Source of the DNA: Ulota crispa
Lineage: Eukaryota; Streptophyta; Bryopsida; Orthotrichales; Orthotrichaceae
Reading direction: 5' to 3'
Assembly: GCA_963920765.1 (NCBI GenBank)
Contig: OY987243.1
Location: 4,092,001-4,156,000 of the forward strand
Length of the DNA: 64,000 bases
The translations under genes were made by a program, and so were the position numbers. The notes under the pieces are model-generated. The model had not been told where the DNA came from. It did no database searches and worked only from the letters and a program-made list of their open reading frames with translations. Position 1 is the stretch's first letter. Every line of letters begins with the position of its first letter. Below are positions 2,325-64,000 of the stretch, one piece after another.

Positions 2325-2467
2325 GAAAGTTTTTATGGATATCGTTGAAGTTTGCCATATTTGCATAGATACCCCTCGTTTTTCAGAAATTGCACAAATA
2401 TCCTTGGACCATAATTTTCAGGTGCTAATTTTTTTATGCACACTACTTCCTTCATGATCAATTTTAA

Positions 2468-2826
2468 CCCTTAAACCTCCCAAGGGCATGGTAGATTCGT
2501 TGTCATATGTTTGGCATTTGCTACCAATAAGAAATTTTAATTAGGGATCTCAAATAGCTCACTAGAACCGTGTTTATTTATATTCCAACTTCTTTGTTGA
2601 TCTCAAACCCTAGTAGAAAACTATGTTGACATCAACATAAACTACATGATGTTTTCATGCTTCTAACGCATAAATTTGCGTTAGAAGTATGAAAACATCA
2701 TGTAGTTTATGTTAACATCAGCATAGTTTTCTACTAGTGATGGAATAGAGGTGTAGACCTTTTCCAAATACAAGAGAAATACCCCACATTGTATTGGTTG
2801 CAAAGGGCCTTTTGGACATTTAAGGG
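2468..2826. mobile_element. TTAA-flanked inverted-repeat element 1
   Basis: Begins CCCTTAAACCTCC and ends with the inverted TTTAAGGG. TTAA lies directly outside on both sides (2464-2467 and 2827-2830). It sits inside the MITE at 2325-3019. The uninterrupted relative of that MITE has a single TTAA at the matching place (about 8613), so TTAA behaves as the target-site duplication. The centre is a long hairpin (2610-2737). Non-autonomous. Confidence 0.82.
2610..2737. repeat. Long near-perfect hairpin, about 60-bp arms
   Basis: The arm beginning CTAGTAGAAAACTATGTTGA returns as its reverse complement ending at 2737, with only a few mismatches. The loop is about 6 nt at the centre (TAAATT between CTTCTAACGCA and TGCGTTAGAAG). 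A transcript would fold like a small-RNA precursor. It forms the core of TTAA element 1. Confidence 0.85.
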
Positions 2827-3560
2827 TTAAAGCAAGGAGTGTAATAGAAAAAAAAAAAACATACACACAAGGGAGAAAGAAATGACATGCACAATAGAAC
2901 AAACGCCAAAAAAATTGTAGTTCTAATGTGTTTGTGCCTGGGGTTTGTGCAATTTCTGAAAGACCAAAGGATCTATACCAATATGGCAAACTTCGAGAGT
3001 ACCCATAAAAAATTTCCTTGTTATAACGCCCTTGCTCCACCAGACAACCTGAAATTTGATAAAAACGAAAATTCTGTGAAGAATGAAGGCAACAAAAATT
3101 TGTAAAAAAAAGAAAAAGAAAAAGAAAGTGTAATTCCTATTTTGCAAATTTTGTGTTTTCCCACTTCTCTTGGACTAACTATGAGGAAGGTATATTACAA
3201 TATTTACAAAACACGGACGGTATTTTCCTTAAAATCAAAATTTCAGAATCCCATTTTTCATAGAATAATCCATTATTATTGAAATTCAAGTCACACGCTT
3301 CCACGCTTGGTTCACAAGAACCGGCTTTTCTTGAAGTTTAAAAAGATGGCTTGATAAAACTCAAAGGTAGAGAGGTTAAGACTACTGCATGAGAAATTAT
3401 CTTTCAAAGTTGTTTTCCTTCTTGTTTATAAATTAAAAAAAAAAAAACATGAACGTTTCAAACAAAAATTCCTTTAATGAGGACTTAGATTTTAAATTAA
3501 AATATTTATCATTTCTAAAGCTAGTTTAAATTTTGTACATTATCACTACATTGTTTTATA

Positions 3561-4292
3561 GGATAGTTGCAAGAATGACTTGCTAGTTTTGTCTCAAACA
3601 CCCTTAAAATTGGTAGTACTATGTAGTACTATGAGTTTTTGAAATATATATTTTTTAAATAAAATAAAATATGGAAAATTTGTAAAGTACTTAAAATAGC
3701 ATACTTGTGAAAATTCAAACTTAGATTTTTTTTATTTTAAATGTTCTGCACAAAACAAAATCACCAACAAAAAGCCAATTTCTTTCTTGCTTTTTAGAAA
3801 ATAGTAAAATAATTCAAAAAATAAAATAAAAAATGGCCATTTGAGAACCCATTAAACACATTCACGTGGTACAATTGCTTTGCTAAGGAATTTCTTTGTA
3901 TTTTGCCAATGAAGGGAGATAGGATGCCCACTTTGAGGCAATGTAAATGTCATGGAATTTATAGCTTTGCAAAACCCTTTTACAAATGCATGTAAGCATG
4001 CTCCATAAACAATATCCTTGATTTATAGCCCTAGAAAAGCTTTTTTGGACCCAAAATAATACTAAAAACCCCCCCAAAATGGCCAAGGTAGACACCTATT
4101 TGGGGGTTGCTCAAAAATAGAAAAATAATTTCAGAAAACACCAAAAAATCATTGAATGTAAATAAATTACATGTTCATGTTATCCTAAAAGGACAAGTCA
4201 ATATGACTTCTTCTGCAAAAGTTACAAGCAAAAAACAAGCCGCAAAAGGTGAGAGAGACAAAATGTAGTACAAGTCATTCTTGCAATCACCC
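3561..4292. mobile_element. Non-autonomous DNA transposon, family M2 (4-bp TSD)
   Basis: Termini are GGATAGTTGCAAGAATGACT on the left and the inverted AGTCATTCTTGCAATCACCC on the right. TATA lies outside both ends (3557-3560 and 4293-4296) as a 4-bp duplication. The interior matches the element at 60625-61362 in the opposite orientation (for example the 'gatgcccactttgag' segment near 3925). No open frame of note. Confidence 0.78.
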
Positions 4293-4915
4293 TATAGTGC
4301 TATTAATTATTGCTAAACTATTCAAAAATAATCTTAGGAACTTGCATGCTTATTTTCAAGAGCTTAGAGACAAACGTAAAGATGTGTCAGAATATTTGAC
4401 TTAGATGGCTTGTTTTGAATTTTGCTTAAATAGAATGTATATGAAGCACATCAAGTAGAATTCAACAATATGGTTGAATTTGAATAAATTATCATGGAGT
4501 TAAAATAGATTTACTAGTATTTTTAAACACTCATAAAAATTTAAAATTAATTTTTTTTTGAATTAGGAATCTATGATTGTCTAAAAATTGTATGCTGAAT
4601 GATATATAGTGGAGAAAATATTAAATATGTGAAACAGTTTTTTCTACCAAAATAACAAAATTTCATACCATGATCATTTTGGCAAATCTAGTTTACCTCT
4701 AAACATCATAAGCATATTCACTACCTTTCCTATGCACTCGGGCCTATGCAGTACATAAAAATTTGATCATATCTACGCTATTCATTTCATTAAATAAGCA
4801 ATCATTGCTCCTTCACCTTATTCAACCAATACTTGCATAAGTTTTCCATGTTTAGGTTGCTTTGACAAAATAAAATACTTTTCAAAATTGCTCATCCACA
4901 AGGTGCAGCATTTAA

Positions 4916-5827
4916 CCCCTAAAATTCTTTCGTGCTTAGAGGCCCAAAACTGTTTCAAAATACTAGTTCCCACAGCAAGGTCAAAATCTTCATTGAAACT
5001 TAACAATTTAACAAATCCAACCGTAGGATCCTTTGGTTGACTTGCACAAGTACATTGTCCCAAAATTTCAGAATGAATATCCCCACCAATTGCAAGATCA
5101 ATGTGCCTAAACTTCAAAAAGTAGGCTTTTCTAGTCCTTCTTGAAGGTGAAGTTTTGATTTTCAAACTTTTTAGAGAAAAACACGTATGTTGTATTTCTT
5201 GTGTAGTTTTGGCAATGTGTTGGAAAATGGGTTGCAAGCATATATAAAAAAAATTAACCAAACAAAATTTTGGATTTATTTTAACAAAAATTGTAATGTG
5301 AAAGGTATTGATGAACAAAAGATATAACTAATAAGCTAATAAGTTTTGGAAGAATTTGAAAATTGTTAATCCCAATGGTGAGAATGCTCTAACAAACAAT
5401 TAGTAACTTTGATTTTCATTTTCATTTGAAATTTTTCAAAATTGAGAATAAAAGATAACTTTATATGTTTTTTCTACCCTCTTCCTACCTTCATTGCCCA
5501 CAAAATAAAACTCCTTTTAACTCTTACCTTGTTATTCAGAATTGAGTGATTCAATTTTTTTGAGTAGGTATCAATCTATATAATTCTATAAAAAAGTTAA
5601 AAAAAATTAAGAATACATTTTTTGCTGCCCAATTTGACATTGAAATTGAAAAAACCTTCTAACTTTTGCATTACTTATTGGAATGACATGAAATAAAGTT
5701 TCACATGTAGATTATGATGAGTAGCATCTATCCTAAAAATTTCATGAAAATTTTCCAAGTTATGAAGTTAATAGAGCTTGCCTGAGTTCTCATAAAACCC
5801 AAAGTGGGCTCCTTGGGCCTTTAGGGG
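4916..5827. mobile_element. TTAA-flanked element 2 (inverted homologue of 36971-37887)
   Basis: TTAA at 4912-4915 and 5828-5831 flank termini CCCCTAAAATTC and (inverted) CCCCTAAAGGCCC. The whole 912 bp is homologous, in reverse orientation, to 36971-37887. A minus-strand open frame entering at 5318 runs out through the left end; about 134 codons lie inside the element. Its reading is recognisable in the other copy, which has a frameshift. The encoded peptide (…FRHIDLAIGG…ILGQCTCASQPKDP…) matches no family I know. Confidence 0.8.
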
Positions 5828-5831
5828 TTAA

Positions 5832-18317: not shown

Positions 18318-18406
18318 TCAAGTCATGGAAACCACTGTCAATAAAAATGGAGCCCCAGCATTCAGTGATGGAACCACAATCCGAGACGCGAGCCAGCAAA
18401 TTGCAG

Positions 18407-19582
18407 TTAGGCCTTCTCCCATTTGAGGGGCTTGACCGTCTCCCAGGTGAAGTCGGGGTCGTTGCGCCCGAAGTGCCCGTACGCCGCCGTCTTCTGGAAG
18501 CGCTTGTTGCCGCCGCGCTTCAGGTCCAGGTTGATGCACATCATGCCCGGCCGGAAGTCGAAGTTCTCCTTCACGAGCTTCAGAATCTCCGAGTCGTGGA
18601 TCTTCCCCGTCCCGTACGTGTCCACGAACACCGACAGCGGCTCCGGCACCCCGATCGCGTACGACACCTGCACCAGCGCCCGCCGCGCCATGCCCGCCGC
18701 CACGATGCTCTTCGCCGCCTGCCGCACGATGTACGCGCCGCTCCTGTCCACTTTGGTCGGGTCCTTGCCCGAGAAGGCGCCCCCGCCGTGCGCGCCCCAC
18801 CCGCCGTACGTGTCGATGATGATCTTGCGCCCCGTCAGCCCCGCGTCCCCGTGCGGCCCCCCGATGACGAACCGCCCCGACGGGTTCAGGTGGAAGATGG
18901 TGTTCTCGTCCATGTACTTGGCCGGGATCACCGGCTCGATCACGTGCTTCTTCAGGTCCGCCGCGATCTGGTCGTTCGTCACCGTCTCGTCGTGCTGCGT
19001 CGAGATCAGCACCGTGTGCACCCGCAGCGGCACCATGGCGCCCCCCTCGTTCCGGTACTCCACCGTCACCTGCGTCTTCCCGTCCGGCCGCAGCCACGCG
19101 CACGTCCCGTCCTTGCGCACCTCCGTCAGCTTCGCCCCCAGCTTCGTCGCCAGCACGTGCGTCAGCGGCATCAGCTCCTCCGTCTCATCCGTCGCGTACC
19201 CGAACATGTGCCCCTGGTCGCCCGCGCCGATGTCCTCCGGCGCCTTCGTGAAGTTCCCGTGCACGCCCTGCGCGATGTCCGGGCTCTGCGCCTCCAGGTT
19301 CATCAGCACCTTGCACTTGTCCGCGTCCAGCCCCACGTCGTCCGACACGAACCCGATCTCCCTGCACGTGTCGCGCACGATCTTCTCGTAGTCCACCACC
19401 GCCTTCGTCGTGATCTCGCCGAACACCATCACCATGTTCGTCTTCGTGCACGTCTCGCACGCCACCTTGCTCTCCGGGTCCTGCTCCAGGCACGCGTCCA
19501 GCACCGCGTCCGACACCTGGTCGCACAGCTTGTCCGGGTGCCCCTCGTTCACCGACTCCGACGTGAACAGAAACGTCTCCAT
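18407..19582 (-). CDS. SAMS: S-adenosylmethionine synthetase (methionine adenosyltransferase), copy 1
   Basis: 391 aa, normal length for the plant enzyme, ATG to TGA in one coding exon. It makes S-adenosylmethionine from methionine and ATP in the cytosol/nucleus, supplying methylation, ethylene and polyamine pathways. Visible signatures: GHPDK at 14-18, GAGDQG at 119-124 (ATP-binding signature 1), GGGAFSGKD at 267-274 (P-loop signature 2), then [10 protein letters not shown]. The enzyme normally works as a dimer or tetramer with Mg2+ and K+. Codons are almost all G- or C-ending, in sharp contrast to the AT-rich surroundings. The coding sequence appears identical in every base to copies 2 and 3. 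Transcribed divergently from copy 2, whose promoter lies about 10 kb away. Confidence 0.97.
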
Positions 19583-20055
19583 CTGCGCACCACCACAATG
19601 CCTATAAATACTAAGCGAAAACCCGCAGCACTAGAATCACATATCAACATTCTTTTAATATCACCGATGTAATAAACCATGCAAGGTGTCCACAAATTTT
19701 TCCCAAACCCTCAAAAGAATCGATGCGGCATTGATCATCCGAACGCACAAGCACACCCTCCACCTCCTAACACGCCATTGACAAACCCCAACAGTACATA
19801 CACAAACCTAGTACGGGATTGGTACAAAATAACAACTCCACCTAACTTATCAGCCAGGTAGTAATCTAGCCAACCATTTCCAACCACATAGAACTATAGC
19901 AACAGGCAAGCCCGGACCACGGGCGCAAGATCTCTACCTACAGTAGGAATCATATCTGAAGGCAATGCACACCACCCCAAAAACAGCCCATCAAAATCCC
20001 GCCAAACTAAAAACAGCGAACACAAACCGCATTGAAACGGGACGGAAGAACTCAC
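19583..20055 (-). other. Probable 5' UTR intron of SAMS copy 1
   Basis: A strong donor (GAG|GTGAGT, intron from 20055) and CAG immediately before the ATG (19583-19585) define a 473-bp intron. Plant SAMS genes commonly carry one intron in the 5' leader. The last 12 nt (GGTGGTGCGCAG) are shared with the other copies; the rest is not. The acceptor lacks a clear pyrimidine tract, so the exact 3' end is uncertain. Confidence 0.6.
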
Positions 20056-22114: not shown

Positions 22115-22517
22115 TTTAATTTATCCATTTGTTTGGATAATATAAGCTTTAGTTGAAAAGGAAAAATAAAACTCAAATAAACAATTGCTTAGAATGCAAC
22201 TACTTACTCAATATACCAAGTTGATTGCGGTTACATAGCATAACCTAGGCATATGCGGTGTGGTTTAGTTAACAAAGCTACACCAATATAATCTTAACTC
22301 ACAATGGTCTTTATGCAAAATTTTGTAAAAAAAATTGGTTGGAAGTTGACACAAAAATGTGGAACATCATTAAATTATCATCATAATTCATTAGAAAAAA
22401 TATGAATCCTTCACAAGGGCCTTAAGAATGGTCTCTCTTAACATTTATTGGGCCTAAATTGGGTACATTAAAAGCATGTGTGAAGTGTCTCTACCTTGTA
22501 TGACTTTCCTATTGTAC

Positions 22518-23459: not shown

Positions 23460-26058
23460 ACCACAAAAACTATGAATAGAAAATGGCACTCTAGTACTAT
23501 GTCACAATTTCTTAATTATTCCCCTATTATTGCACTCAATCATAATTAATGTTACCCTCACAAGTACTGGGTTAAAGATTTTAATATAGAGAAAAAGGAC
23601 CCCGGTAATATGAACATGTAATTGTGACGCCCAATGAAAATTGGACATGCCAATGTGAGTCATGATTGTAGTTAAAGGCATAGTAGGGTGTAAGGAATTT
23701 TTGTTACTCCAAAGTACAAATTAAAACAATTAAGGAGACCCCTTGAGAGGGGTTCTTAGGGGCCTTGTGGAGGGCTCATGTTTTTTCTAATGTTTGTTGA
23801 AATTGTGCCATCAAACAATCAAAGAAAAATCTTAATACATATGTATGGATAAAAAAATTAATTGATTTGAATACCTACATAATTAGTACAATATCTTCCT
23901 ATCTTTTTAACCTTTTAAAGATAAACTAACAAGTTTTAACAAAGAATGTATATAGTTTAACTTTGTTAAACAATTATGAAATTGGTCATGAAAGGTTTTG
24001 TTGACAAGTGACTTTTAAGCACATTGTGCTCTAAAGTACATGGTAAAGTAAGCAACTAAGCATTTAATCCTAGTTTCACTATATTTGACTTGTTGAAAAT
24101 TGTTCATACATTTTATGTGAACTTTTCATATAAATTGATTGAAGTTTCAGTAAAATACCAAATAAAACAAGTCCTCACTACAGAGGTTCACATCACAAAT
24201 TAAATGATTATACTGAATACAACACCCCAATTCAAAATACTTAACATACAACGCATTGATGTCGTTTAAATGAAGAATTTGTATGTTATAGAAATATGTT
24301 AATTATAACACATTTTTTTGCAATGTCTTATAAAAAGAATTGGAACATTACCATATTTAAATTGTCCAACAAGGAGTTTTGAATATAAAGCTCTAAGGTA
24401 ATGTAAATCAGATAAAATTTTGACTCCATCAGGTAATACTTTATTTCTTCATCAAATATTGGGAGGTACGTTTTAATCTTAAAAGGTTATAAATTGAAAA
24501 TATTAGAAAATGAATGAATCCAAATACACTCCAAGCATACCAAAGTTTAATCTTCCATCCATCCAGTTTTTTATTAAAAGCTTAAGTGCTTTAAATTATG
24601 CACAAAACAAATTTAACTGCTTTTCTGTAAACATTGTATAACTCAAGGACTCCACAATTGTCTGTTTCAAAAAATAAATTCTCTAATTCAAATGGGCTTT
24701 TAAATCTAATGTGAACAATGGAGGAACATAAGGAACTTTCATTACAACCATAGTTAGAAACTTAGGTTTCAAACTTATTATCAAAAAAGTTTTATTTTCA
24801 ACATATCTAACAACCAAATTGTAATATTTTATATGATAAACTTTAATAAATTCCATAACTATAGTGAACAAAATAAGAGCCAAATTGGAGCAATCAAGGG
24901 TTTCAAAGTTAGAGAATTTAACCCTCATGATCTGTCACGTATTTAACCATGATAAAACAAATCTTGTTGTAGAAGCAAAATTTTAAAGCAGCGAGAGTCA
25001 TGCTAGCAAGTATTGGCAAACAATTGTCCTCAAGTAGCATACGTGAGGAAATTTTGACTATAAATCCAAGGCAAGTTATCAAGATTTTTTTATCACCAAG
25101 TATGCAATACCTTTTCCTGATAAATTTTACATAGTACACGAGGTTTTATCCTAACGTTGAAATCTTCTTAAAATAGAGTATTATGACATTAGAGGATTTC
25201 AACTGCTGCAAAATGTGAAGTTGAGAGCAACAATTTCCCTGCATTATTGGTGTGTAGCAGTGTTTTTGTTTGAGGCGAAACATAGCCAGAAAGCAAAACT
25301 TTTTTTAAGGTGCCTCAAATTAGCGCCAGAATTCAGGTATTCATGGAGATTGATTCGTCAGAAATTCAATTTAAACACTATTTTAGGAATCTCTTTCACC
25401 TCTTTTTCCAACTTCTGGTGGCCATAACCACTTACTCTCAAAGTCCTTTTGCGAGATGTAGAGTTTCAAAAACCTGGATATGTCACCAGGAATGGCCATC
25501 ACCATCGTTTGTTTCTCCAGATGTAGTCATCTCCTTCCAGTGTTTTTGTTTGGGGCTATAAATTGCCGGAAAGCTACAAAAAATTTGAGGAGTCTGAAAT
25601 TAGTACCAAAGCCAGCGAAATCATTGAGTGTGATTTGCTAGAATTTGCCAAAATTCACCAATGCAAGAACTGCTTTTGCCACCTTTTCTCACATGTCACG
25701 CCACAATCATTTGCTTAGGATGCCCTTTGCACTAAAAACTTGGGGATTGCATGTGGACTTCACCAAAAAATAAATGAAAGAAGCTAGATTTGCACCCAAA
25801 AAAAAAGGCAATCGCCAGATTAGCACCAAACAAAAAACTCCATTTTAACCCCTAAATGCCCAAGGCACTAGGTTTTGGTGTCCAAAAAATATCAAGAAAC
25901 TTTGAAACCCTGTTGAAGTTACAGATTTTATTGTTTTGAGGTTTTTTTTTGTGGAAAAGTTGCGCATTGAAGTTACCTTCACCGTTCAAATTCAACTTCC
26001 TCCATATCTTATTCCATTTGTTTTTGGTGGAAGGTTAACTACAAGCTTACATTCTTTG
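23460..26058. other. AT-rich intergenic DNA; one unpaired TTAA-type end
   Basis: No gene seen. At 25845 TTAA is followed by CCCCTAAATGCCCAAGG, a perfect left end of the TTAA family. The only possible partner, GGGGGG-TTAA at 26807-26816, matches it in just the first four bases, so the element is probably broken. Confidence 0.4.
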
Positions 26059-26160
26059 TTGTGAATAGTGTTGTGAATAGTGTCATGAATAGTGTTGTGA
26101 ATAGTGTCATGAATAGTGTTGTGAATAGTGTCATGAATAGTGTTGTGAATAGTGTCATAG
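26059..26160. repeat. 24-bp minisatellite, about four copies
   Basis: The unit GTGTTGTGAATAGTGTCATG+AATA repeats about four times, with an inner 12-bp period (TGTGAATAGTGT / CATGAATAGTGT). Copies are virtually identical, so the expansion is recent. Open in more than one frame only because of its period. Confidence 0.9.
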
Positions 26161-27021
26161 AGCTTATGAGAAGTTGCCACATTGAAAAGACGGGCATCAA
26201 GTTGAGCAAAAGGTGAAGATTTCCCTTGGGCACTCCTTTGGGCAATAAGGGCCTTTTTACTAAAATTTGGACATCTAACAAAAACTAAAAGTGCTTTTGG
26301 ACTAATTTCACTTGGAATGTTTTTGTTATAAAAATTAGGATCCTTTCACCGTTGAAATTTCTTTCATTCATAATGATTTTTGGTCAATAATTGAAGTTGA
26401 AAATTTCTTTGTATTAGACGGTTGCGTTTTGACAATTGCATTGCAAGCTCATTTGTGAAATTGTGTTCATGGATTTGGAAGAGGGACAATTGGTTTTGAA
26501 GTAACAGCAATAAACACTAAAGCATCCTAAGTGGTTGTCTCCCAATTTTGTATCCAAAAGTTGCCAATTTGAATTAGAAGTTTTGGACAGTTAAAAAAAA
26601 AGCAAAAAATTCCATACTCATCATCATTCAATCACAAATGCCTTAAAATCTGCGCAACCATTTTGGATTCTTTTTGGGTAGTGCAATCTAAAAACCTTGA
26701 AATTCAAGATTCAACAGTTACAATTTTATTTTGATGTTTAATAATGATCTTACAAAGACAATTCAAAAACTTCAAAACTACCTTCTGCAAACGAGAAAAA
26801 CATCCTGGGGGGTTAAACACTGATGTATAGCCATCAATTACAGGGCATGTGCCACTTCTGGCAAGTTTCCCTAAAGCGAGTTCGCTGGTCAAGGACTCAA
26901 GGTTGCAGTATTTCGGTACTACGGAGCACTCCTGTACCAAAATATCGTACCATACATTGTACCAGATACTCTTAAAACATCCCACTGGCTGTAGTTTGTC
27001 GTCCAGTCACCGGTCACCTGG

Positions 27022-36966: not shown

Positions 36967-36970
36967 TTAA

Positions 36971-37887
36971 CCCCTGAAGGCCCAAGGAACCCACTTTGGG
37001 CTTTATGAGAACCCGAGCAGGCTCTATTGGTTTCATAATTTGGAAAATTTTCGTGAAATTTTTAGGATGGATGTTACTCATCATAATCTACATGTGAAGC
37101 TTTATTTCATGTCATTTGGATAAGTATTGCAAAAGTTAGAAGGTTTTTTCAATTTCAATGTCAAATTGGGCAGCAAAAAATATATTCTAAATTTTTTAAA
37201 TTTTTGTTTATAGAATTGTATAGATTGATACCTACTCAAAAAAAAAAAATTGAATCACTCAATTCCAAATAATGAGGTAAGAGTTAAAAGGAATTTTCTT
37301 TTGCGGGCAATGAAAGTAGGAAGAGGGTAGAAAAAACATATAAAGTTATCTTTTACTCTCAATTTTGAAAAATTACAAATGAAAAAGAAAAAGAAAGTTA
37401 CTAATTGTTTGTTAGAGCATTCTCACCATTGGAATTAACAATTTTCAAATTCTTCCAAAACTTATTAGCTTATTAGTTAAATCTTTCATTCATCAATACC
37501 TTTCACATTACAATTTTTGTAAAAATGAATCCAAAATTTTGTTTGGTTAATTTTGTTTATAAATGCTTTCAACCCATTTTCCAACATATTGCAAAAATTG
37601 TACAAGAAATACAACATACGTGTTTTTCTCTAAAAAGTTTGAAAATCAAAACTTCACCTTTTGAAAGGACTAGAAAAGCCTACATTTTGAAGTTTAGGCA
37701 CATTGATCTTGCAATTGGTGAGGAAATTCCTTCTGAAATTTTGGGACAATGTACTTGTGCAAGTCAACCAAAGGATCCTATGGTTGGATTTGTTAAAAAA
37801 TAAGTTTCAATGAAGATTTTGACCTTGGTTTGAGGACTAGTATTTTGAAGCAGTTTTGGGCCTCTAAACGCAAAAGAATTTTAGGGG
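36971..37887. mobile_element. TTAA-flanked element 3 (inverted homologue of 4916-5827)
   Basis: TTAA at 36967-36970 and 37888-37891; termini CCCCTGAAGGCCCAAGG and inverted CCCCTAAAATTC. 917 bp. The plus-strand frame starting at 37525 matches the minus-strand frame of element 2 but is broken by a frameshift near 37795, after which the match resumes at about 37836 in another frame. Confidence 0.82.
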
Positions 37888-38185
37888 TTAAGGATCCCTT
37901 AAGGCATTCTAAAGTTAGTAAGTCACTAATCCACCACATTGCATCATGTTTGGGAGTTCTAGAAAGAAAAGAAGGGCAAATTTCATATTTATTAAATGTT
38001 CATTTAATGATGATGGCAAACACACTTGTTCTAGGATTATGTATATTTTAAAGTATGGAAGTTTAATCAAGTAAAAGATAGAAGAAAAAGAAGAGTGAAC
38101 CAAGAAAAAGAAAAAAGAATAAGAACACTAGGTAAGGAAAAGATAAAAGAAAAGAAAGTGTGGAAACGTCTGCTAGCATCATTAA

Positions 38186-38949
38186 CCCCTAAGCGTCTTA
38201 CTAAGAAAATTTAGCATACCTCCAATATGGAACCTTCAGCACATTCCCTCAATTTTTAGAAAGTTGAACAAGTATTCACACAATCCAAATTGGTCATTCT
38301 ACACCTGACTATAAATCAAGAATTTAAGTCTAGTCTAATTTTAGATCCAAGTAAATCTGCAAAATCCCCACCGTTGAGAATCTCATATTTGTCAATTTGG
38401 GTAGCAGTTCACAATATAGATTTTTGCTTTGATGTGATTTTTTCCCCCAAAAAAAATCCTAATGGTTGATCCCATGAGACTGTGTATACCTATACTTGAT
38501 GGAAAAAAAAATCCTCAAATGGGAAAAAACTCCAAAACTTAGGGTCATTCAAAGTAAGTGGATCTAGCTGGCTCACTACTTTAGAGCTACAAAAACCTTG
38601 CCCAATCAAGAGGAAAAAAAGTGACACATCACCAACCTTCTCCCCTATACATGGGAGTGTGGGCTTCCAACCCATCCCATCCAAAATTCCTCCATCCACA
38701 ATGCACTGTATAATGCCTATATACACTCCCACTATAGTTTTTATATTAAATATAGTAAATTGAAATGCATGGGTGCAAAATCTAGAGGCTTCAAGGAACA
38801 AGAAGCTGATCCAAAAGTTTTGTTGGACTTTTAGCTCCATTTGGACTTGAGTGTCAGACCAAAACTTGAGCATGCAATGCCCTTTTTGTCTACTTTTACA
38901 CCTCCAAGAACCCCATTTGGCCATATTGGGCTCTTTGGTCCTTTAGGGG
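38186..38949. mobile_element. TTAA-flanked element 4
   Basis: TTAA at 38182-38185 and 38950-38953; termini CCCCTAAGCGTC and inverted CCCCTAAAGGACC. 764 bp. Homologous end to end to 59931-61461, which carries an additional insertion. A minus-strand frame (38490-38924) is partly shared with the relative but shifts frame there. Confidence 0.82.
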
Positions 38950-39024
38950 TTAAATAGTCATTCAATAGATACAAAATTTATCCTTTTCTTTAAGGAACTC
39001 CTAAACATGGTGCAATGTAGTGAA

Positions 39025-43061: not shown

Positions 43062-43304
43062 TTACAACCCCTTCAGTACGGCATCTAGATGTAAGTGCAA
43101 ACCCTAAATTGGTCAAGGTTTCTTCTGTGGAATCTAAATGACTTTTCTATTCATGGAATGCAGCTGATCACTCCTGTGAAGTTGTGATGTCCTTGGAAAG
43201 GCTTGAACATCGAACACTGTGCAAATTATCAAAAGTGGAGCCTCGAAAACCGCCCGGGCATTTTGAACAGCCACGTAGAGAAATGGACATGAGGTGGTTC
43301 TTAA

Positions 43305-43545
43305 CCCCTGAGCGCCTAGAGTTGAAACAAAAGAAGCTTGACTTGTGTGCAATCAAAGCGCCCTTGTGGACTGAAAGATATAATCCACAAGATCCGATCA
43401 TATGAATTGTTAGTGGAAAGAGTCTCCATCATGCTGGGCTTAATTGGAAGTCGTTTCACGGGACGTGCAATGAGATTACAACAGTCAAAATTGAGTTGAC
43501 CCAGCTTTTTGAGCGACAATACACTGTCGCCCAGGCGCTCAAGGG
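43305..43545. mobile_element. TTAA-flanked element 5
   Basis: TTAA at 43301-43304 and 43546-43549; termini CCCCTGAGCGCC and inverted CCCTTGAGCGCC. 241 bp, no coding capacity. Terminal type shared with 46650-47309. Confidence 0.8.
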
Positions 43546-43877
43546 TTAAATCAACCTCTTACAATCATTGGATGCATGGAAGAAAATTTGTTTTTAATTG
43601 CAAAGAGCCAATCATTCTCCTTGCTTCTCAAATCTCTTCACAGCTTGCAAGTGAATTATTCTTGGAAGGTTTAGGGTCATAAATAGGGACTTATGACACA
43701 TGCACTTTGAAAATTCATAAGTACTTCAAAAATGCTCCAAAAAATATGAAGCAACTTGTGTTACATTTTGCATCTATTTCTCTCTATTTGAAAAATGAAC
43801 TAAAAATCCTCCCATTCACGGAAAACCATGAAAAAGGGGATGAGCCCTTAAATGGTCAATTTTTGAGCCTCCTACCT

Positions 43878-43999: not shown

Positions 44000-44192
44000 T
44001 TACAATTTGGAATTTCAGCTCTTGTTGGGCCACATTGCCCGTCGAAACGACAATTCATTTGGAATTTTGCAGTGCATGGGCACCACCACCGAAAACTGAC
44101 GAGAAACCACTACGATGAACCATCTGGATTTGGAAGAGAGATTTTTGAGTCCACACTCCACCTACAACAAGCTTGGCATTATTCGTAATTAA

Positions 44193-44263
44193 CCCATTAA
44201 TGACCAGGCGACCAGAATGTGGTCGATTTCCTGTGTGTTTTTGGGACCACGATTGTTAATGGG
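44193..44263. mobile_element. TTAA-flanked element 6, only 71 bp
   Basis: TTAA at 44189-44192 and 44264-44267; termini CCCATTAATGACC and inverted CCCATTAAC. A second inverted pair, CCAGAATGTGGTC…GGGACCAC, lies inside. The smallest member of the family here. Confidence 0.72.
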
Positions 44264-44267
44264 TTAA

Positions 44268-46425: not shown

Positions 46426-46649
46426 TATACGTAGGATGAACTTAGGAAAGATGAATAGAAGTGAGCACAAAACAGATGACATGCAACTGATTGAGGTTTT
46501 TCATCCTGGTCCATGTGGGCATGAATTTTGTGACTGAACTGGACCGGGGCCCTGATTGCGGAGTGCTTGAGTGTCGGCAATCCCCTCAATAGGAGTTTCA
46601 AAAGTTAGGATAGAGGAATGGATTTCACTAAACCTCACCCTGTACTTAA

Positions 46650-47309
46650 CCCCTGAGCGCCCAGCAGTTGAACTAAGAAACAAGCCTGAAATGCACATGG
46701 TGGCATTCGCGAATTCACCAGAAATGCAGGAAGTTGATTGAAGCAAATTCACCATTGAAAAAGAGAGTCAGTTGGGGTATGGTGCTCCTGGAAGAATTTT
46801 GAGATTTTTGACCGTGCTCTTTAGGATCTTATAATGGTCAAACAAAGTTTGGCTGCAGTAAAAACACTTTGAGCACATGGGTCGGGCACTTTCAAAATTC
46901 ACAGTGGCTTGAGGAAGGGTCAGATTGGAACAAAAATTTTAGGAAGGGAGGGTGAGAGGGTTTATGAGAGATGCCCAAATTTGCTGATCTTTTGGTCCAA
47001 TTCTGAACCCAGGCGATATCTCTGAAGTTCATGGACGTTGGCTGCAAGTGCAAGCTTACAAGGAAGTGTATCCGGGCAAATGCCTCCCCAAATCGCTAGA
47101 ATAGCCAAAAACTTGGATCCACTACACTGAATAATGGTGACCACTCCCATGTATATCCTCAAATAGAAAATCGCCCATTCCCCTTCATTACTTCAAAGCC
47201 CCCCATGTACATACTACAAAAATAAAATTCAGAACAACCACAACCAAGCCGGAATTTGGATTTGTCAAAGCAGGAGGGGCCACATCCTGTCCCTTGGGGC
47301 GCTCAAGGA
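46650..47309. mobile_element. TTAA-flanked element 7
   Basis: TTAA at 46646-46649 and 47310-47313; termini CCCCTGAGCGCCC and inverted (T)CCTTGAGCGCCCC. 660 bp, no coding capacity recognised. Confidence 0.77.
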
Positions 47310-47443
47310 TTAATGACTCTGACACCTTGTTTCTGGTGCAAGGGTAAAATAGATCCGCTGTTTTATGATAAGGATAAAAGTAAGAATGTCTCTCTACTTT
47401 GGAGTTGGTCATTTTAATTCTTTTTTGGGATTTTTTGGATTAA

Positions 47444-48029
47444 CCATTAAGGTCTGTTGTGGGCAATTCTGGGGTGCATGAGGCCTTTTTTGATGTTTTG
47501 GAAAAACTCATAATAACAAAGAATACAAATGCGTACAGAAGATCCAATTGTACGGATGGCAATGTCATGCATGGTTTATGGGTGAGCATCAATTTTTTAT
47601 GTTTGATTTTGTTTGCAAGTAGGTTTAAATGTGCACATACAAATACGGCGGTCTCTATGGTGGTGGATTGTATTTCTTTATGGATTGTTCTTTCTTATTG
47701 CTTGATGGACCACATGGCTATTCTTTAGGATGATGATGGGTTTAGGGAAAACCTAGAATCTTGGGAACCCGTACAAGTACTTGATTTTTAGTGATTATGA
47801 CCATCTTTCTATGTTCATTCTTGTATTTTGGCAACTAGTACTTCTTGAGTTTTTCCAATGCCCTGATCACGTGGCAGCTCAACTAAACAGATTTTTGTTT
47901 CAAGCTATGGGGTTCCTAATTGCCTACACTCGTCCCCTTTACCGCATCCTCAAATTCCCTAACATGCTCTCCCTACCAACTAAAAAGAGTCAAAATCAAC
48001 CAAAAACTAGTCAACCGGACCTTAATGGG
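47444..48029. mobile_element. TTAA-flanked element 8
   Basis: TTAA at 47440-47443 and 48030-48033; termini CCATTAAGGTC and inverted CCCATTAAGGTCC (one C lost on the left). 586 bp. Terminal type close to element 6. Confidence 0.72.
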
Positions 48030-48033
48030 TTAA

Positions 48034-54315: not shown

Positions 54316-55073
54316 GTTCGTCTCACAATTTCTGGACTGATTCCCGTTCTTTTGTTCTCTTTTCTGCTCAGAAGATTTATCTGAAGTCCTGGCTACTCTG
54401 TTTTTTTAATTTGGGGTTCAATGGTGGTCCTGCTGCGTCGTTTTGTAGTAGCGAGTCAGATCTGGGCTTCTTTTCGGTTTTCGGGGTGTAGTGGTATGGG
54501 CTGGGAAGATAATGAGAGCATTTGTGGTTTGGGGCTCATGAGGTATCTTGAGGGTATTAAAAAGAGACGGATGTTGAGGGTTTTGTTGGAGGGGAGTTTT
54601 TGGCTATGGCGTTGGTGGTTACATCATCACGTGATTAGCTTCAGGTCTGGCAATGTGGGTATTCCACGTGGTGAACACCGTCATGTGGTAAATTAGGTCT
54701 TAGATGCTGCTGCGTCATCCTGTCCGCAGCTCTGAGTGTGCGAAAGCTCTGTCTTGACCATGCTTCGAAGTGACCACCATAGCTCGTTATGTCGGGAGAC
54801 TGAGTAATGTATGCATTGCCGAAAAAAATGTCCGCTTCCGAGTCTCACTTCCTGAAGATTCTGGCACCTGCAAGTGTATTCATGCAATTTGCGCGAGAGT
54901 AGTCATGATGGATTTGCTTGGACTTGGGCGCTGGGGCGAAATGTTGTGTGGACTGCAGGGCGTGTAGCAATGCAATGTGGGGCCGAGGGCATTTCTGCCT
55001 TGGTGAGTGACGTCGTGGGGGGGGGGGTGTGGGGTATCGGACGCGCTGACGGTGGGGTGGCGGTGGTGCGCAG
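54316..55073 (+). other. Probable 5' UTR intron of SAMS copy 3
   Basis: Donor CAAAG|GTTCGT and acceptor GCGCAG before ATG 55074; 758 bp. The first ~260 bp differ from copy 2, the rest is identical apart from an 11-nt instead of 14-nt G run. Confidence 0.55.
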
Positions 55074-56249
55074 ATGGAGACGTTTCTGTTCACGTCGGAG
55101 TCGGTGAACGAGGGGCACCCGGACAAGCTGTGCGACCAGGTGTCGGACGCGGTGCTGGACGCGTGCCTGGAGCAGGACCCGGAGAGCAAGGTGGCGTGCG
55201 AGACGTGCACGAAGACGAACATGGTGATGGTGTTCGGCGAGATCACGACGAAGGCGGTGGTGGACTACGAGAAGATCGTGCGCGACACGTGCAGGGAGAT
55301 CGGGTTCGTGTCGGACGACGTGGGGCTGGACGCGGACAAGTGCAAGGTGCTGATGAACCTGGAGGCGCAGAGCCCGGACATCGCGCAGGGCGTGCACGGG
55401 AACTTCACGAAGGCGCCGGAGGACATCGGCGCGGGCGACCAGGGGCACATGTTCGGGTACGCGACGGATGAGACGGAGGAGCTGATGCCGCTGACGCACG
55501 TGCTGGCGACGAAGCTGGGGGCGAAGCTGACGGAGGTGCGCAAGGACGGGACGTGCGCGTGGCTGCGGCCGGACGGGAAGACGCAGGTGACGGTGGAGTA
55601 CCGGAACGAGGGGGGCGCCATGGTGCCGCTGCGGGTGCACACGGTGCTGATCTCGACGCAGCACGACGAGACGGTGACGAACGACCAGATCGCGGCGGAC
55701 CTGAAGAAGCACGTGATCGAGCCGGTGATCCCGGCCAAGTACATGGACGAGAACACCATCTTCCACCTGAACCCGTCGGGGCGGTTCGTCATCGGGGGGC
55801 CGCACGGGGACGCGGGGCTGACGGGGCGCAAGATCATCATCGACACGTACGGCGGGTGGGGCGCGCACGGCGGGGGCGCCTTCTCGGGCAAGGACCCGAC
55901 CAAAGTGGACAGGAGCGGCGCGTACATCGTGCGGCAGGCGGCGAAGAGCATCGTGGCGGCGGGCATGGCGCGGCGGGCGCTGGTGCAGGTGTCGTACGCG
56001 ATCGGGGTGCCGGAGCCGCTGTCGGTGTTCGTGGACACGTACGGGACGGGGAAGATCCACGACTCGGAGATTCTGAAGCTCGTGAAGGAGAACTTCGACT
56101 TCCGGCCGGGCATGATGTGCATCAACCTGGACCTGAAGCGCGGCGGCAACAAGCGCTTCCAGAAGACGGCGGCGTACGGGCACTTCGGGCGCAACGACCC
56201 CGACTTCACCTGGGAGACGGTCAAGCCCCTCAAATGGGAGAAGGCCTGA
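55074..56249 (+). CDS. SAMS: S-adenosylmethionine synthetase, copy 3
   Basis: 391 aa, identical to copies 1 and 2. Intact from ATG 55074 to TGA, with GHPDK, GAGDQG and GGGAFSGKD at the expected positions. Of the three copies this one has the clearest TATA box alongside the conserved leader donor. It lies 23.48 kb downstream of copy 2 in the same orientation, so unequal exchange between the two would delete or duplicate the HNH gene between them. Confidence 0.97.
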
Positions 56250-56376
56250 GTGCGGAGCTGTTTTGCCGCGCTGTGATTGTATGAGTGTGTGTAACGCCGA
56301 GCCGGGCTGTGAAGGGGAGCATGCGGGCGAGGCGGATTGTTCTGGTAGGTACGGATTAACGGTCTCGGAGTAGCGG

Positions 56377-57086: not shown

Positions 57087-58289
57087 CGGCATCCCCAATG
57101 CAGCCGTAAGAGAGGCAGGCAAAAGCTTGTGCAATGCTTTAACCCTAAATGCCCGAGGCCTTTCTGAACTTCTTCTTGGCATTTTCAGGAAAGTGAACAA
57201 TCAACCAACCTTTTCAAAAATTTCATCAAGTTTTTTTAACTGTAACCATACAAATATAAACTTTGACATGTTAGAGATTACATGGAAAAAGAGATTACAT
57301 GGAAAAAGAAAATACAACAATATCACTTATAGTTTGAAAGATTATAATGTTTGAACACGAGGGCGTTAAAATTGCAAAAGTGACTTGAAGTTTTCTAATC
57401 CTCATTTCACATGTCAAATCTAAAAAGTTGGTCATAAAAAAAATATGAGGTTTAAGGTCATTACATGTTTAATTTTAGTCAATTTACAGCTTCCAAAATC
57501 TACTCATGTATTTTTTTTAATGGATTGCTAATACGGATTTTTCTCCAAGCTCTAGTGTATTTGAGGCTCATTTTCAAGATCTTCCAACACTAGAAAACTC
57601 AAGATTGCAGTGGACACCCTTGTACAAAATCTTGAGTAGAAAAATCATCAATATTCATTTTTTAAATCAGATTTTTGGTGTTGAAAATAGACTTCATAAC
57701 AAACTTGTGTTCAAAAGAATATACCAAAAATAGTGATTTGATAAGGTTTTATTTGTCTTCAAAGTTTTGTAAACACCCAAATTGGGTGCCTTGGGCATTT
57801 AGAGGTTAAACCGGACTTCAGCAAAAACATGGGTTCCAATGCAGTAGGTAAACCATACTGCATTTTTCAAGGCTCCCCACATAAGAGCCCCTCCATTGCA
57901 AATTTTCACTATTTGGAGAGTCCATACCACTCTTGGGAATTTCAGATACTTCTGACATGAATCAGCTACACATAATTCTATAAAAAAAATAAGTCCTAAA
58001 TGACTAAGTGACAATGATTGCAATGATTATACAGCTACAAAATGACTGCAAAATGACTGTTCAGTCATGGTTTAGTCATTGTCATAGTCATTTAGAACCT
58101 GTTTTTTTACTTGTGTAAGCACTTAAAAAAGACATGAACTATTAAAATACTGTGTTTAGTGAGAGTCATAATGTATATGCATTGGGAGGTGGTGGATTGG
58201 AAAATGGCCCTGCTATGTAAGAGAGCCGGTGTTAGGCACGGTCTGACACACTTTTCGGAGCTTAGATCTTGGCTGGATTGGGGATGCCC
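57087..58289. mobile_element. PIF/Harbinger-like MITE 1 of a chain, hosting a TTAA element
   Basis: Left end CGGCATCCCCAATGCAGCC, right end inverted GGCTGGATTGGGGATGCCC, TTA outside both (57084-57086 and 58290-58292). Of 1,203 bp, 663 belong to the TTAA element inserted at 57143. Confidence 0.8.
57143..57805. mobile_element. TTAA-flanked element 9
   Basis: TTAA at 57139-57142 and 57806-57809; termini CCCTAAATGCCCGAGG and inverted CCTCTAAATGCCCAAGG. Inserted within a PIF-like MITE, hence younger than it. Confidence 0.83.
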
Positions 58290-59926: not shown

Positions 59927-59930
59927 TTAA

Positions 59931-61461
59931 CCCCTAAGTGTCTTGCGAAGAAAATTTAGCATACCTCCAATATGGAACCTTCAGCACATTCTCTCAATTT
60001 TTAGAAAAATGAACAAGTATTCACACAATCCAAACAAGTCATTCTATTCCCAATTGAAAATCAAAAGTTTAAAGCTAATCTGATTCAAATTCAAGTAAAT
60101 TTGCAAAATCCCCATCGTTGAGAATCTCATATTTGTTAATTTGAGTAGCAGTGCACAATATGGATTTTGGACTTTGATGTGATTTTTTTCCAAAATAAAT
60201 AATTAACTAATGGTTGATCCCATGAGACTGTGTCTAGCTATACTTGATGGAAAAAAAAACTCCTCAAATGGGAAAAAACTCCTCAAATGGGAAAAAACTC
60301 CAAAACTTATGGTCATTCAAAGTAAGTGGATCTAGCTGGCTCACTACTTTAGAGCTACAAAAACCTTGCCCAATCAAGAGAAAAAAACTTGACACATCAT
60401 CAACCTTCTCTCCTATACATGGGAGTGTGGGCTTCTGATCCATCCCATTCAAAATTCCTCCATCCGCAATGCAATGTACAATGCCTATATACACTTCTAC
60501 TAATGGTTTTAGTATTAAAATTAGTAAATTCAAATGTTTGGGTGCAAAATCTAGAGACTCCAAGGAACAAGAAGCTGATCCAATAGTTTTGTTGGACTTT
60601 TAGCTCCATTTGGACTTGAGTGGCGGGTGATTGCAAGAATGACCTGTTTTGTTGTTTGTCCCCTTCCCCTGTTGCAAGTGGTTTTTGGGTCTTATCTTTT
60701 GCAGTTTTAGTAATTTTGACTTGAAATTTTAGAGCAAGGTGAACATGAAAGTTATTGATATTTAAAATTTTCTTTGGATTTTTTAAAATTCTTTTACTAT
60801 TTTTGAGTGGACCCCAATGACCTATCTACCTTTGTGGTTTTGGTGGTTTTCAATATCATTTTGGGTCCAAAAATGCAAATCCAAAGCCACAAATTAGGGA
60901 AGTGGTTTAGGAGGCATCAATACACATATTTATTGACTAGTTTTACTAAACTCAAAATATTTTGGCCTGCACATTGTCTCAAAGTGGGCATCCTTTCTCC
61001 CTCCATTGGTGAAAGACAAAAACCTTCCTCCAAAAAGCACTTGCATCAGTTCAAGCCAATGAGAGAGATGAGAAATGGACATCTTTTATTTCATTTTTTT
61101 GAATTATTTTACTATTTTCTAAAAAGCAAAAAGGAAATTGTCTTTTTGTTGGTAATTTTTGTCCCTCTATTTTTGTGCATAACTTTTAGGATAAAAATTT
61201 TCTAGGTCTAAATTTTCACAAGTATGCTATTTTAAGTGCTTTACAAATTTTCCATATTTTATTTTATTTAAAAAAAAATATTCAAAAGCTCATAGTACTA
61301 CGTAGTACTACCAATTTTAAGGGTGTTTGAGACAAAACTGGCTGGTCATCTTGCAACTACCCTGGCAGACAAAAATTTGAGCATGCAATGCCTTTTTTTG
61401 TCTACTTTTACACCTCCAAGAACCCCATTTGGTCATATTGGGCTCTTTGGTCCTTTAGGGG
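59931..61461. mobile_element. TTAA-flanked element 10, interrupted by a 738-bp insertion
   Basis: TTAA at 59927-59930 and 61462-61465; termini CCCCTAAGTGTC and inverted CCCCTAAAGGACC. Without the insert it is about 790 bp and homologous to element 4 (38186-38949) throughout. Confidence 0.83.
60625..61362. mobile_element. Non-autonomous DNA transposon, family M2, nested
   Basis: Termini GGGTGATTGCAAGAATGACC and inverted GGTCATCTTGCAACTACCC; TGGC on both sides (60621-60624 and 61363-61366). The unoccupied site in element 4 reads GAG-TGTC-AGACC, one base different. Interior inverted relative to 3561-4292. Confidence 0.83.
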
Positions 61462-61465
61462 TTAA

Positions 61466-62516
61466 GGGCACAAGGTGTGGTTACTTAGGCAAAGGAGAGA
61501 GAAATGGAAGGGGCCTTGTCTTGGAGAACGTTCAACCCTCCATTCCATCTGTCACTTGTAAAATCTAGAAGTTTAAATTTTTGAACAGTTTGTATATGAT
61601 TTAATTCTTTACTTCCAAGTGTTAGTAGACTAAGGTTCCTTGGTTTTCTCCATTTTGATGAGTATAATTTAGATATTGAAATGCACAAGATGCCTCCAAT
61701 GTTGCCTAGTATATTGCAAATTTCATGAGCTTTTGGCTTTACAAGAATGTACATAGTATGTTATACTCCTCCAATTCATTTGAAAAATTCTCCCACACAT
61801 ACCTAGCATAGTCTTCAACATGAAGGAATTAACCCCTAAAGTCCTAAGCTAAGTTCTTCACCAAAATCACTCCAAAACTGCCATTTCTAGTACAAGTACC
61901 ACATTTTAGAAATAGAACATTTTTTGATACATGTAACCATAAGACCTTGTAGTACGCTAGTATCCAAAGTTGTGAAAAAAATTCAGAAATTTGCACCATG
62001 TAGATTGTAAGATACTTGAGTTTGAATTGACAATATACCATTTTTTGTCCGTGCCAAAATTCGAGCAACTGCACTTCACAAGGTCATATTTGTATGAAAA
62101 ATTTCCAAAATGGTTGTAATTTTTTGGATTTGTTCTTCAAAGCAAGTTGGGTACACACTTGAAAATTTTCAAATCATTTGGAATTATACAACATATGGGG
62201 AAAAATTAGTAAGTAAAAGGAAGTAGAGAATGGTTCAAAACACTCAATTGTTAAGTACTTAATTATGGAAATGAAAAATTTCAATCCCAATGGTTTTTAC
62301 ATTGTGATAAACAATTTTCATCCTTAATTTTTTTTTTGAAATATTGAAAATTGAGTAATTGATAAATAACTTCAAAGTTTATTTTAGAATGGAGAATTCA
62401 TAACTGCCCGCAAACAAAATCTCCTCATAACTTTCATCTCATTGATCAAAATTGAATGATTCAAAGCTTTCCATGTATATATAAATCTAAAGAACCAATT
62501 TCAAAAAACAAAAAAC
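61466..62516. other. AT-rich intergenic DNA; one unpaired TTAA-type end
   Basis: TTAA-CCCCTAAAGTCC at 61832 has no recognisable partner. No gene. Confidence 0.4.
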
Positions 62517-62520
62517 TTAA

Positions 62521-63715
62521 CCCCTCATTGCGTAAGGGGACGGAAAGCGTCTTCTAGCAATCAATCACTCCTACTTGAAGTGTTGTAACTTTTGGGTGTA
62601 CTGTCCAAATTCAATAAAGATTGTTGGCAAAGTTGCGCATACTAGTCTAGTTTCTACAAACACCATATTAGGTAAATTGGGGAAAAGGTACATTTTGGGA
62701 CTTTTGCAGGTTGTACATGATCACCTACAATTGAGCTCAGTATTTTTTTTTGTACATGGGCCCTCACTTGAGAGGAGGAATTTGCGAGGGAAAAAATCTT
62801 AGTGGCTCAAACTAAATTTGATACCTTCAAATTTGGTTTTGGGTAACTTCTCTGGATCTAGGTGACGTACAAATTGGGACCCCCCGTTTTCCCAATTTAC
62901 CTAATATGGTGTTTACGATAGAATTTTCAGACCAATCTAAAACATGTTCAACTTGTGAAAGCCATTCAAAGTTCATAGGGTCAATTTGAGTTCACCACAT
63001 TGCATTGTGATGGCGGCAACTTTGGGGGTTTGTATATTTTTCATCAAATGTTTGTTTTCAATAAAATTTGTTGCGTTTTGTTCTCCTAAAAGTCTAGTAA
63101 TTATAGTAAAATTTTCATGTCAAGCCAAATTGTTTTGAATGTTTGAGAGCAACTTAAAGTTCAAAATCCACTTGTTTTTGCATTATAGTGAGCTTTGGTG
63201 GCTTATAACTTATTTGTAGAATTTTGTTTTCAATATCTATTATTGGGAAAGTTGCGCATACTAGTCTAGTTGTTGTGGTCATATTTTCATATCAATCCAA
63301 GAAGTTATGAGTGAATGAGAAGCATTTTAGTAGGAGGAGGTTTAGCCTAAGATGTAATTTTTTGCTACTTTTCTCATTCTTTTTTAACAATTCAAAACAA
63401 TTTTGCAAACAAAATGAGTATATTGATTGATATTTTCTTTCACCAATATGTTTGTATATTGGTTTGAATCACTTTATTTATTTATTTTCTTTCATTTGAG
63501 TAGGTTTAGAAATCAAATTTTAGCATCTTTTTTCAACACTAAAACAACAAAATTCATCTAATATATGAGGTCAAATGACCCCAAATTTGATCCATATCAT
63601 CTACAACATGCACACTACAAGATTGCACGGTTGAAATTTTCAATGGCATTTAGACTTACAACACTTGAAAAGCAAGAATAACTTTAGGCCCCTTTGGACC
63701 TTAGGTTGTGAGGGG
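62521..63715. mobile_element. TTAA-flanked element 11
   Basis: TTAA at 62517-62520 and 63716-63719; termini CCCCTCATTGCGTAAGG and inverted CCCCTCACAACCTAAGG (five central mismatches). 1,195 bp with no recognisable coding region. The least certain pairing in the set. Beyond it, 63720-64000 is AT-rich with GAGC(A/T)TGAGC-type direct repeats at 63845-63885 and nothing else seen. Confidence 0.62.
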
Positions 63716-64000
63716 TTAAAATATAATTTAAAAAAAAAAATATGTCTGTCAAGTAAAGAAATCAACATATCATGCAATAAGTTTAGAATTATGAAGTCAA
63801 AAGCTATGGAATTTGTTGGACTTTAAAGCAGGGTTGCTAGCAGGCGAGCCTTTGAGCATGAGCTTGTGAGCTTGTGAGCCTATGAGCAGGAAACTTTTCA
63901 AGTAAATTTTGGAGTGAAGTACCTATGATCGTGGAACTTTTGTACAAATGTGAAATAATAAGTAGGTCATATTGTAAGGGAACTTGTGGAATATATGAAA

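Follow-up and report, generated by a model that had tools for sequence, protein, structure and literature searches.

We recovered eleven elements flanked by TTAA from a 64-kb stretch of plant DNA (C2:4092001-4156000, within a 274.8-Mb assembly; the window). These elements are almost certainly non-autonomous derivatives of the piggyBac superfamily, moved in trans by transposases whose genes lie in 5-7.5 kb elements at other places in the genome. The genome contains more than 100 piggyBac DDE domains, which in sampled copies are bracketed by TTAA-CCC...GGG-TTAA ends. The sequence of the ends follows the relatedness of the transposases. In most of the left ends sampled, a palindrome has its centre on base pair (bp) 25; the right ends have none.

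The accepted elements are 79-1539 bp long and sum to 8365 bp, or 13% of the window (Table 1). A reading of the window made earlier from its letters (the sequence-only reading) had described eleven TTAA inverted-repeat intervals of 71 bp to 1.5 kb. It was borne out in substance, the smallest element being counted here with its TTAAs; its own intervals were unlisted, so the two sets are not matched one to one. Support varies among the elements. Matching copies were found at both ends of 4912-5831, 25845-26816, 36967-37891, 38182-38953, 57139-57809, and 59927-61465. The element at 46646-47313 was accepted by homology along its whole length and by its ends. The remaining 4 of the 11 (2464-2830, 43301-43549, 44189-44267, and 62517-63719) have paired ends alone, or paired ends plus one homologous end.

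Counting both strands, the window contains 22 copies of the motif TTAACCC[ACT]T, compared with 2.7 +/- 1.7 (maximum, 8) in 200 dinucleotide shuffles and 5 in the reversed window. Convergent pairs of these ends (<=2.5 kb apart, >=11/15 end identity) number 7 in the window, 0.02 in the shuffles (maximum, 1), and 1 in the reversed window, which is the excess of paired ends over shuffled sequence that had been expected. The same pairing criteria gave 2 divergent pairs in the window itself. By itself, the shorter motif TTAACCY, which the sequence-only reading had quoted, is weak or uninformative: the window has 39, shuffles give 22.4 +/- 4.5, and the reversed window has 40. Of the 39 TTAACCY ends, 15 coincide with a start or stop of similarity to other copies; among 351 further TTAA sites, 7 mark the beginning of an alignment and 8 the finish of one. 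Among the 22 motif sites, orphan ends remain at 34030, 48033, 59686, and 61829; 46646 is an element end and no orphan.

The genome encodes at least 120 matches to PF13843 (DDE_Tnp_1_7) above the cut-off, the best at 254 bits. This count is a lower bound, with 116 of 528 candidates scored, and it corresponds to about 116 copies, since four copies have two matches each. None of the 120 listed matches is in the window, which is no proof of absence at that coverage. The search found no piggyBac in 14 control genomes, of which those named are bacteria and archaea and are uninformative on plants. Twenty matches were sampled as surrounding 10-kb stretches (L017-L036). The open frame in L017 matches the solved structures of piggyBac (6x67; 4.1e-20) and piggyBat (9c0f; 5.8e-17). 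In the alignment of the 20, the first catalytic D is present in 19/20 and the VDxxDQ motif in 17/18 and 18/18; by our reading of the same alignment, the second catalytic D is kept in 16/19. The median pairwise identity is 36.5%. A tree of the 20 contains five supported groups: A (L017, L021, L029, and L031), B (L020, L027, and L028), C (L019, L023, L026, and L033), E (L030, L032, and L034), and F (L035 and L036). L024 and L025 ("D," ungrouped by themselves) adjoin C, and L018 and L022 stand apart. As a separate observation, at 4641-4912 of L022 a stretch of about 270 bases containing stops breaks the frame and separates ...SSQSQ from LSRYVSK.... This may be an intron; other transposase copies run on uninterrupted there.

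The PF13843 domain lies between matching TTAA ends in 13 of the 20 sampled loci, in elements of 5.0-7.5 kb. L035 and L036 are 89-93% identical, and their similarity stops at TTAA-C(C/T)CCTTGAGGAC...TTAA. The DDE domain is within these elements, whose lengths are 5308 and 5230 bp. The L028 element is 5746 bp long and has the end CCCCTAAATGCC on both sides. L064 was picked by end pattern alone. Its two ends, exact clade-A matches on C6 separated by 5516 bp, bracket a PF13843 match. It has TTAA on both sides and contains a transposase piece with a Cys/His tail. The 13 sampled copies and L064, with a piggyBac transposase domain between such TTAA ends, are relatives of the kind that the sequence-only reading had proposed to look for. 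Its view that several subfamilies are moved by TTAA-specific transposases encoded elsewhere is supported, and of the two superfamilies that it named, piggyBac was found.

For correlation with the transposases, ends were picked by a fixed rule (the nearest end-like site beyond the domain) and compared over bp 6-16. Transposase identity follows right-end identity (r=0.515; 0/20,000 permutations as high; 18 loci) and left-end identity (r=0.309; 3/20,000 as high; 19 loci). The subfamilies of ends noticed earlier are explained in this way, because transposase relatedness predicts end sequence. The end types in the window resemble those of the clades: CCCCTAAATGCCC resembles B, CCCCTGAGCGCC resembles C, CCCCTCATTGCG resembles D, and CCCATTAATGACC resembles A.

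Kolobok and Sola3 transposases also target TTAA. One of them might move the gene-less elements, with the piggyBac copies as unrelated residents. The shared target allows this reading, no search was made for Kolobok or Sola3, and the commonest end type, CCCCTAAAGGNCC, is without a firm piggyBac match. Kolobok is not required to explain the elements. However, piggyBac domains lie inside elements with the same end types, and ends follow transposase relatedness. The element at 25845-26816, moreover, shares both ends with clade B. It aligns to the two ends of L020/L028 at 82% over bp 389-966 and at 66.5% over bp 1-206, and its right end, CCCCCCAGG, is decayed. Because both ends are shared, it is a relative that has lost its interior. 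We consider another TTAA-specific transposase very unlikely.

Genome-wide, exact ends were counted for TTAACCCCTAAATGCCC (3363), TTAACCCCTGAGCGCC (1568), TTAACCCATTAANGACC (107), TTAACCCCTAAAGGNCC (10,998), and TTAACCCCTCATNGCC (390). The five patterns total 16,426 exact matches, and the reversed controls were all 0. The genome-wide search for TTAA ends that had been proposed was thus positive, with 3363 matches to TTAACCCCTAAATGCCC against none for its reversed control. The outer base is T at 3363 of 3532 exact ends (95%) and A, C, or G at 169, so the outer T is part of the target site. These counts bear on a reading in which the true duplication is TA, made by a Tc1/mariner-type element with ACCC...GGGT ends and a preference for TTAA. 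Because TTAA reads identically on both strands, an intact site looks the same under either reading. A TA duplication with free outer bases was rejected on the counts of 169 non-T and 3363 T, and the enzymes inside the elements are piggyBac. The TA reading has hardly any probability left.

Clade-A type ends hold a second, inner TTAA (TTAACCCATTAAGG), and it is exactly there that a CCCCTAAATGCCC element lies in L050 and L054, as TTAACCCA-TTAA-[element]-TTAA-GG. The inner TTAA is occupied by 25 ends genome-wide (13 CCCCTAA, 6 CCCCTGA, 5 CCCCTCA, and 1 CCCCTTA). The uninterrupted form occurs 107 times exactly, and the end at 48033 in the window is this form with one change. The insertions lie at TTAA, and uninterrupted sites carry one TTAA; these empty sites are paralogous, not allelic, and the flanks of the ends themselves give no independent evidence, since TTAA served to pick them. 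A further stretch, TTAACCCATTAACCCATTAAGG (L021 1687-1720), looks as if one clade-A element had entered the inner TTAA at the end of a second. Within the CCCCTAAATGCCC family, 14 of 18 fetched pairs are about 650 bp long and are 76-94% identical to their own majority sequence, so the sampled copies are not young. L001-L008 and L037-L054 were chosen for carrying a CCCCTAAATGCCC end, and window boundaries of that type (25845, 57139, and 57809) are therefore not independent.

The sequence-only reading had also offered the telomere unit as a source of the ends. CCCTAAA is present in many of them, and 10 of the 23 CCCTAAA/TTTAGGG units in the window are at a TTAA end, with one tandem pair. In the ends, however, the unit is single and lies within the longer motif CCCCTAAATGCCC, which is common to transposase-bearing elements. 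The unit is not supported as a general source, since CCCCTGAGCGCC, CCCATTAATGACC, and CCCCTCATTGCG lack CCCTAAA. A telomeric origin of the CCCTAAA-bearing ends is extremely improbable.

The identity of left and right ends is 0.88 over bp 1-5 (used in picking), 0.85 over bp 6-10, and 0.62 over bp 11-16, and then falls to background. Terminal pairing of 10-17 bp that differs between elements had been reported from the window; the ends are indeed alike to about bp 16 and follow the transposase clade. Of 86 non-redundant ends (from 146), 11 have a palindrome (arms >=5) whose centre is exactly bp 25. Shuffles of bp 10-45 gave a mean of 0.26 and a maximum of 3 (500 shuffles), and the next best centre was found in 4 ends. 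With stricter thinning, the palindrome is in 7/72 ends (shuffles, maximum 2). Pairing is raised only between bp 18-22 and 28-32. At least 4/5 pairs are formed in 9/13 left ends (upstream of the transposase) versus 0/18 right ends (Fisher, 3.5e-5), with a left-end list that was made by hand after palindromes had been seen in some ends. L064 is a cleaner test. Its palindrome is as predicted, with 5/5 pairs at the left end and 0/5 at the right.

The dimerisation/DNA-binding domain of moth piggyBac reads bp 7-16, and in the complex a zinc-finger dimer occupies, at only one end, a palindrome within bp 17-33 whose centre is near bp 25 (sections of PMC7351741). The plant ends share this geometry, which also accounts for inverted repeats that stop after 10-17 bp. 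By analogy, the plant protein may bind the left-end palindrome. A transposase dimer would recognise bp 1-16 of both ends, and a C-terminal zinc-finger dimer would bind the left-end palindrome at bp 17-33. The element would be cut out and then inserted at TTAA. Each transposase lineage would drive its own gene-less elements, down to 79-bp copies made of two ends with about 9 bp between them.

Two exact CCCCTAAATGCCC ends lie 30-60 bp apart in 45 elements on C1-C10, and 40 of these are exactly 79 bp long. Across the 43 whose complete sequence was compared, the better end forms 4-5 of the 5 possible palindrome pairs in 41, and the opposite end never forms more than 3. The mean difference between ends, 3.07, is greater than in all 5000 random re-pairings (mean, 1.88; maximum, 2.70). 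Given this asymmetry, each mini-element seems to join a left-type end to a right-type end across about 9 bp. Elements of 79 bp with clade-A ends were retrieved at 44189-44267 and in L059-L061; those in L063 and L062 are 78 and 71 bp long. L057 and L058 contain 79-bp elements with clade-D type ends. In L059, L060, L061, L063, and 44189-44267, one end forms 4-5 palindrome pairs and the opposite end 0-1. L062, L057, and L058 are below the bp-25 palindrome count; by our reading, L057 has GGACA..TGTCC about half a base off. Over 39 positions of inner sequence, D matches B at 12 and 14, which is at chance (shuffled mean, 11.3; 99%, 17). Matches of A with B (18-24) and of L058 with A (19-20) are above chance, and L057 matches A at 14-16. 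With such mixed matches, the 79-bp length could descend from one ancestor or have arisen repeatedly.

Because piggyBac is best known from animals, its presence might reflect contamination of the assembly by another organism. However, matches and ends are on all of the large contigs C1-C10 (C1-C9 are 19-41 Mb) and on C11. Their surroundings are plant genes and plastid-derived pieces, and in the window these end types abound alongside plant S-adenosylmethionine synthetase genes. The synthetase in the window scores best against 6vcz/6vcx, which we take to be from Arabidopsis (824-821 bits); the next group, animal-type, is at 548 bits. C157 (112.5 kb) is a plastid contig. Its PsaB scores 1714-1710 bits with 8htu, 6l35 (presumably Physcomitrium patens), and 7ksq, 1676 bits with 9lut, and at most 1632 bits with others. 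The source organism of 7ksq and 8htu is Physcomitrium patens. The plastid contig and the plant-type synthetase confirm the plant genome of the sequence-only reading, and a moss is most likely from the PsaB scores. The chance that the piggyBac sequences are contamination is negligible.

Several points weigh against the piggyBac explanation or parts of it. Seven of the 20 sampled loci are without a confident left end. Left ends without the palindrome are found in L022, L025, L026, and L033 (4/13), and the hand-made list of left ends excluded 7/20 loci. The commonest end type (10,998 exact ends) is resembled only by the right end of L027. Most sampled transposase domains contain stops, and no intact full-length gene was shown for the piggyBac copies. 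Patterns of a Cys/His tail were read in L027, L028, L034, and L064, with no Pfam model match for a Cys-rich tail. The AlphaFold model of one open frame, with 13 rows, has a mean predicted local distance difference test score (pLDDT) of 45.5 and is too poor for use.

Table 1. Elements and ends of elements in the window, with the observations that bear on each.
Feature	Coordinates	Strand	Observations
Element, 367 bp	2464..2830	.	Ends CCCTTAAACCTCCC / CCCTTAAATGTCCA, 13/16 bases alike; no homologous copy ends here
Element, 920 bp	4912..5831	-	Similarity to 36967-37891 (91%) and to a copy in L034 (90%) ceases at both boundaries; left-type end is 5831, with palindrome of 4/5 pairs
Element, 972 bp	25845..26816	+	Internal-deletion relative of clade-B L020/L028; left-type palindrome, 4/5 pairs
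Element, 925 bp	36967..37891	+	Family of 4912-5831; palindrome of 4/5 pairs at 36967 end
Element, 772 bp	38182..38953	-	Copy 59927-61465 stops at both its ends
Element, 249 bp	43301..43549	-	Ends CCCCTGAGCGCC / CCCTTGAGCGCC, clade-C type, 13/16 alike; 244-250 bp elements with this end occur on C1; at 43549 end, palindrome GCGACA..TGTCGC, half a base off bp 25
Minimal element, 79 bp	44189..44267	+	Clade-A ends; 71 bp in the earlier reading is the length between TTAAs; first 39-56 bp align to left ends of clade-A L021, L029, and L031; palindrome 5/5 at one end, 1/5 at the other
Element, 668 bp	46646..47313	.	Clade-C type ends, right end TTAATCCTTGAGCGCC; bp 1-668 align to L033 329-1010, 60%
Left end of clade-A type element, TTAACCCATTAAGG	47774..48033	-	260 bp align to L021 left end; site is uninterrupted here and occupied in L050 and L054
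Member of ~650-bp CCCCTAAATGCCC family	57139..57809	-	End-to-end alignment, 71-89%, with C1 copies chosen by this end; palindrome 5/5 at 57809 end
Copy of 772-bp family (cf. 38182-38953)	59927..61465	-	738-bp insert 60625-61362, edges not TTAA
Element, 1203 bp	62517..63719	+	Ends CCCCTCATTGCG / CCCCTCACAACC, clade-D like, 12/16 paired; homologous copies stop at 63719; palindrome 4/5 at 62517 end

Two candidates were rejected. The interval 22636-23337 has 14/15 end bases alike, and homology crosses both of its ends. It falls within a larger palindromic repeat at 22513-23460. A second such repeat is at 34050-34877; the arms are 83-98% complementary, with no TTAA boundary. The interval 59927-61465 was not retained as one long element, being a 772-bp family copy with an inserted repeat. 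Copies of this 738-bp repeat are at 60625-61362 and 3560-4292 in the window and at 7661-8385 in L028, and they are 75-82% alike. By eye, its ends resemble TTGCAAGATGACC inverted repeats, without TTAA. It appears to be a different mobile element, inserted in a TTAA element. Tandem 12-bp units (TGTTGTGAATAG / TGTCATGAATAG) occupy 26045-26176, within the element at 25845-26816.

The window contains three S-adenosylmethionine synthetase genes (18403-19594, 31584-32775, and 55062-56253). Each is one frame of about 400 amino acids. The copies are 100% alike over 1192 bp, with one inverted, and may reflect recent duplication or conversion. The flanks of the second and third copies are near-identical too (300-bp repeats D1 and D2). 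For PsaA/PsaB, 46 of 48 matches are outside the plastid contig, on C1-C10, and are mostly short, which suggests many plastid-derived nuclear inserts.

The elements are clearly members of the known piggyBac superfamily, in an unexpected host. To our knowledge, piggyBac is regarded as a superfamily of animals, fungi, and protists, with hardly any descriptions from land plants. Among the papers listed from the open-licence PubMed Central (PMC) literature, we found no account of piggyBac in mosses; several of them mention plants in passing. A match for Niphotrichum was to the word "piggybacking" and was rejected. Passages of three papers name plants among piggyBac hosts (PMC10813416, PMC10140906, and PMC8086355). 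PiggyBac is among the plant superfamilies listed in part of another (PMC10794571), and archaeplastid piggyBac-like elements are mentioned in a passage of PMC9942806. A repeat table for a land plant, the fern Ceratopteris, contains a PiggyBac row with 1230 copies and 122,417 bp, or about 100 bp per copy; the accompanying passage gives neither transposase nor ends (PMC6890710).

The closest parallel is piggyBac of the moth Trichoplusia ni (6x67/6x68), as described in sections of PMC7351741. Both have a TTAA target, ends that start with CCC, and DDE_Tnp_1_7 with DDD. Both also have a left-end palindrome centred near bp 25 and ends that are unlike further in, and the plant's putative Cys-rich tail, read as a pattern, would be a further likeness. 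The plant elements differ in host and in their pairing arms, which are at bp 18-22/28-32 rather than in a 17-33 palindrome. No displaced copy of the palindrome was found in plant right ends, a further difference from the moth element. Moth piggyBac is reported to need 35 plus 63 bp in cells, whereas the plant has 79-bp elements. PiggyBat of the bat Myotis lucifugus (9c0f) has the same domain (5.8e-17) and inverted repeats of about 15 bp. It is described with simple 15-bp repeats in a passage of PMC8086355, whereas the plant left ends add a palindrome. TTAA elements with piggyBac-like features in coral genomes (PMC2872659) are described as likewise gene-less and linked with piggyBac, in an animal host.

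A broader reading is tentative, and we think it somewhat less probable than its negation. The moss genome would hold an old, diversified piggyBac radiation as a major DNA-transposon force. The moth-like left ends would make a lopsided zinc-finger complex ancestral to much of the superfamily. The geometry of that complex would set a 75-bp unit between TTAAs, kept as 79-bp ends-only transposons with at least three end types. More than 100 transposase copies and more than 16,000 exact ends in a plant would widen the range of piggyBac and show that high abundance is possible. The link between transposase lineage and end sequence offers enzymes naturally matched to their cognate ends. From a host far from insects, the left-only palindrome lends natural support to the lopsided complex observed by cryo-electron microscopy. 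The 79-bp elements raise the question of how 75 bp of DNA brings two ends together, compared with the 35 plus 63 bp that moth piggyBac is reported to need.

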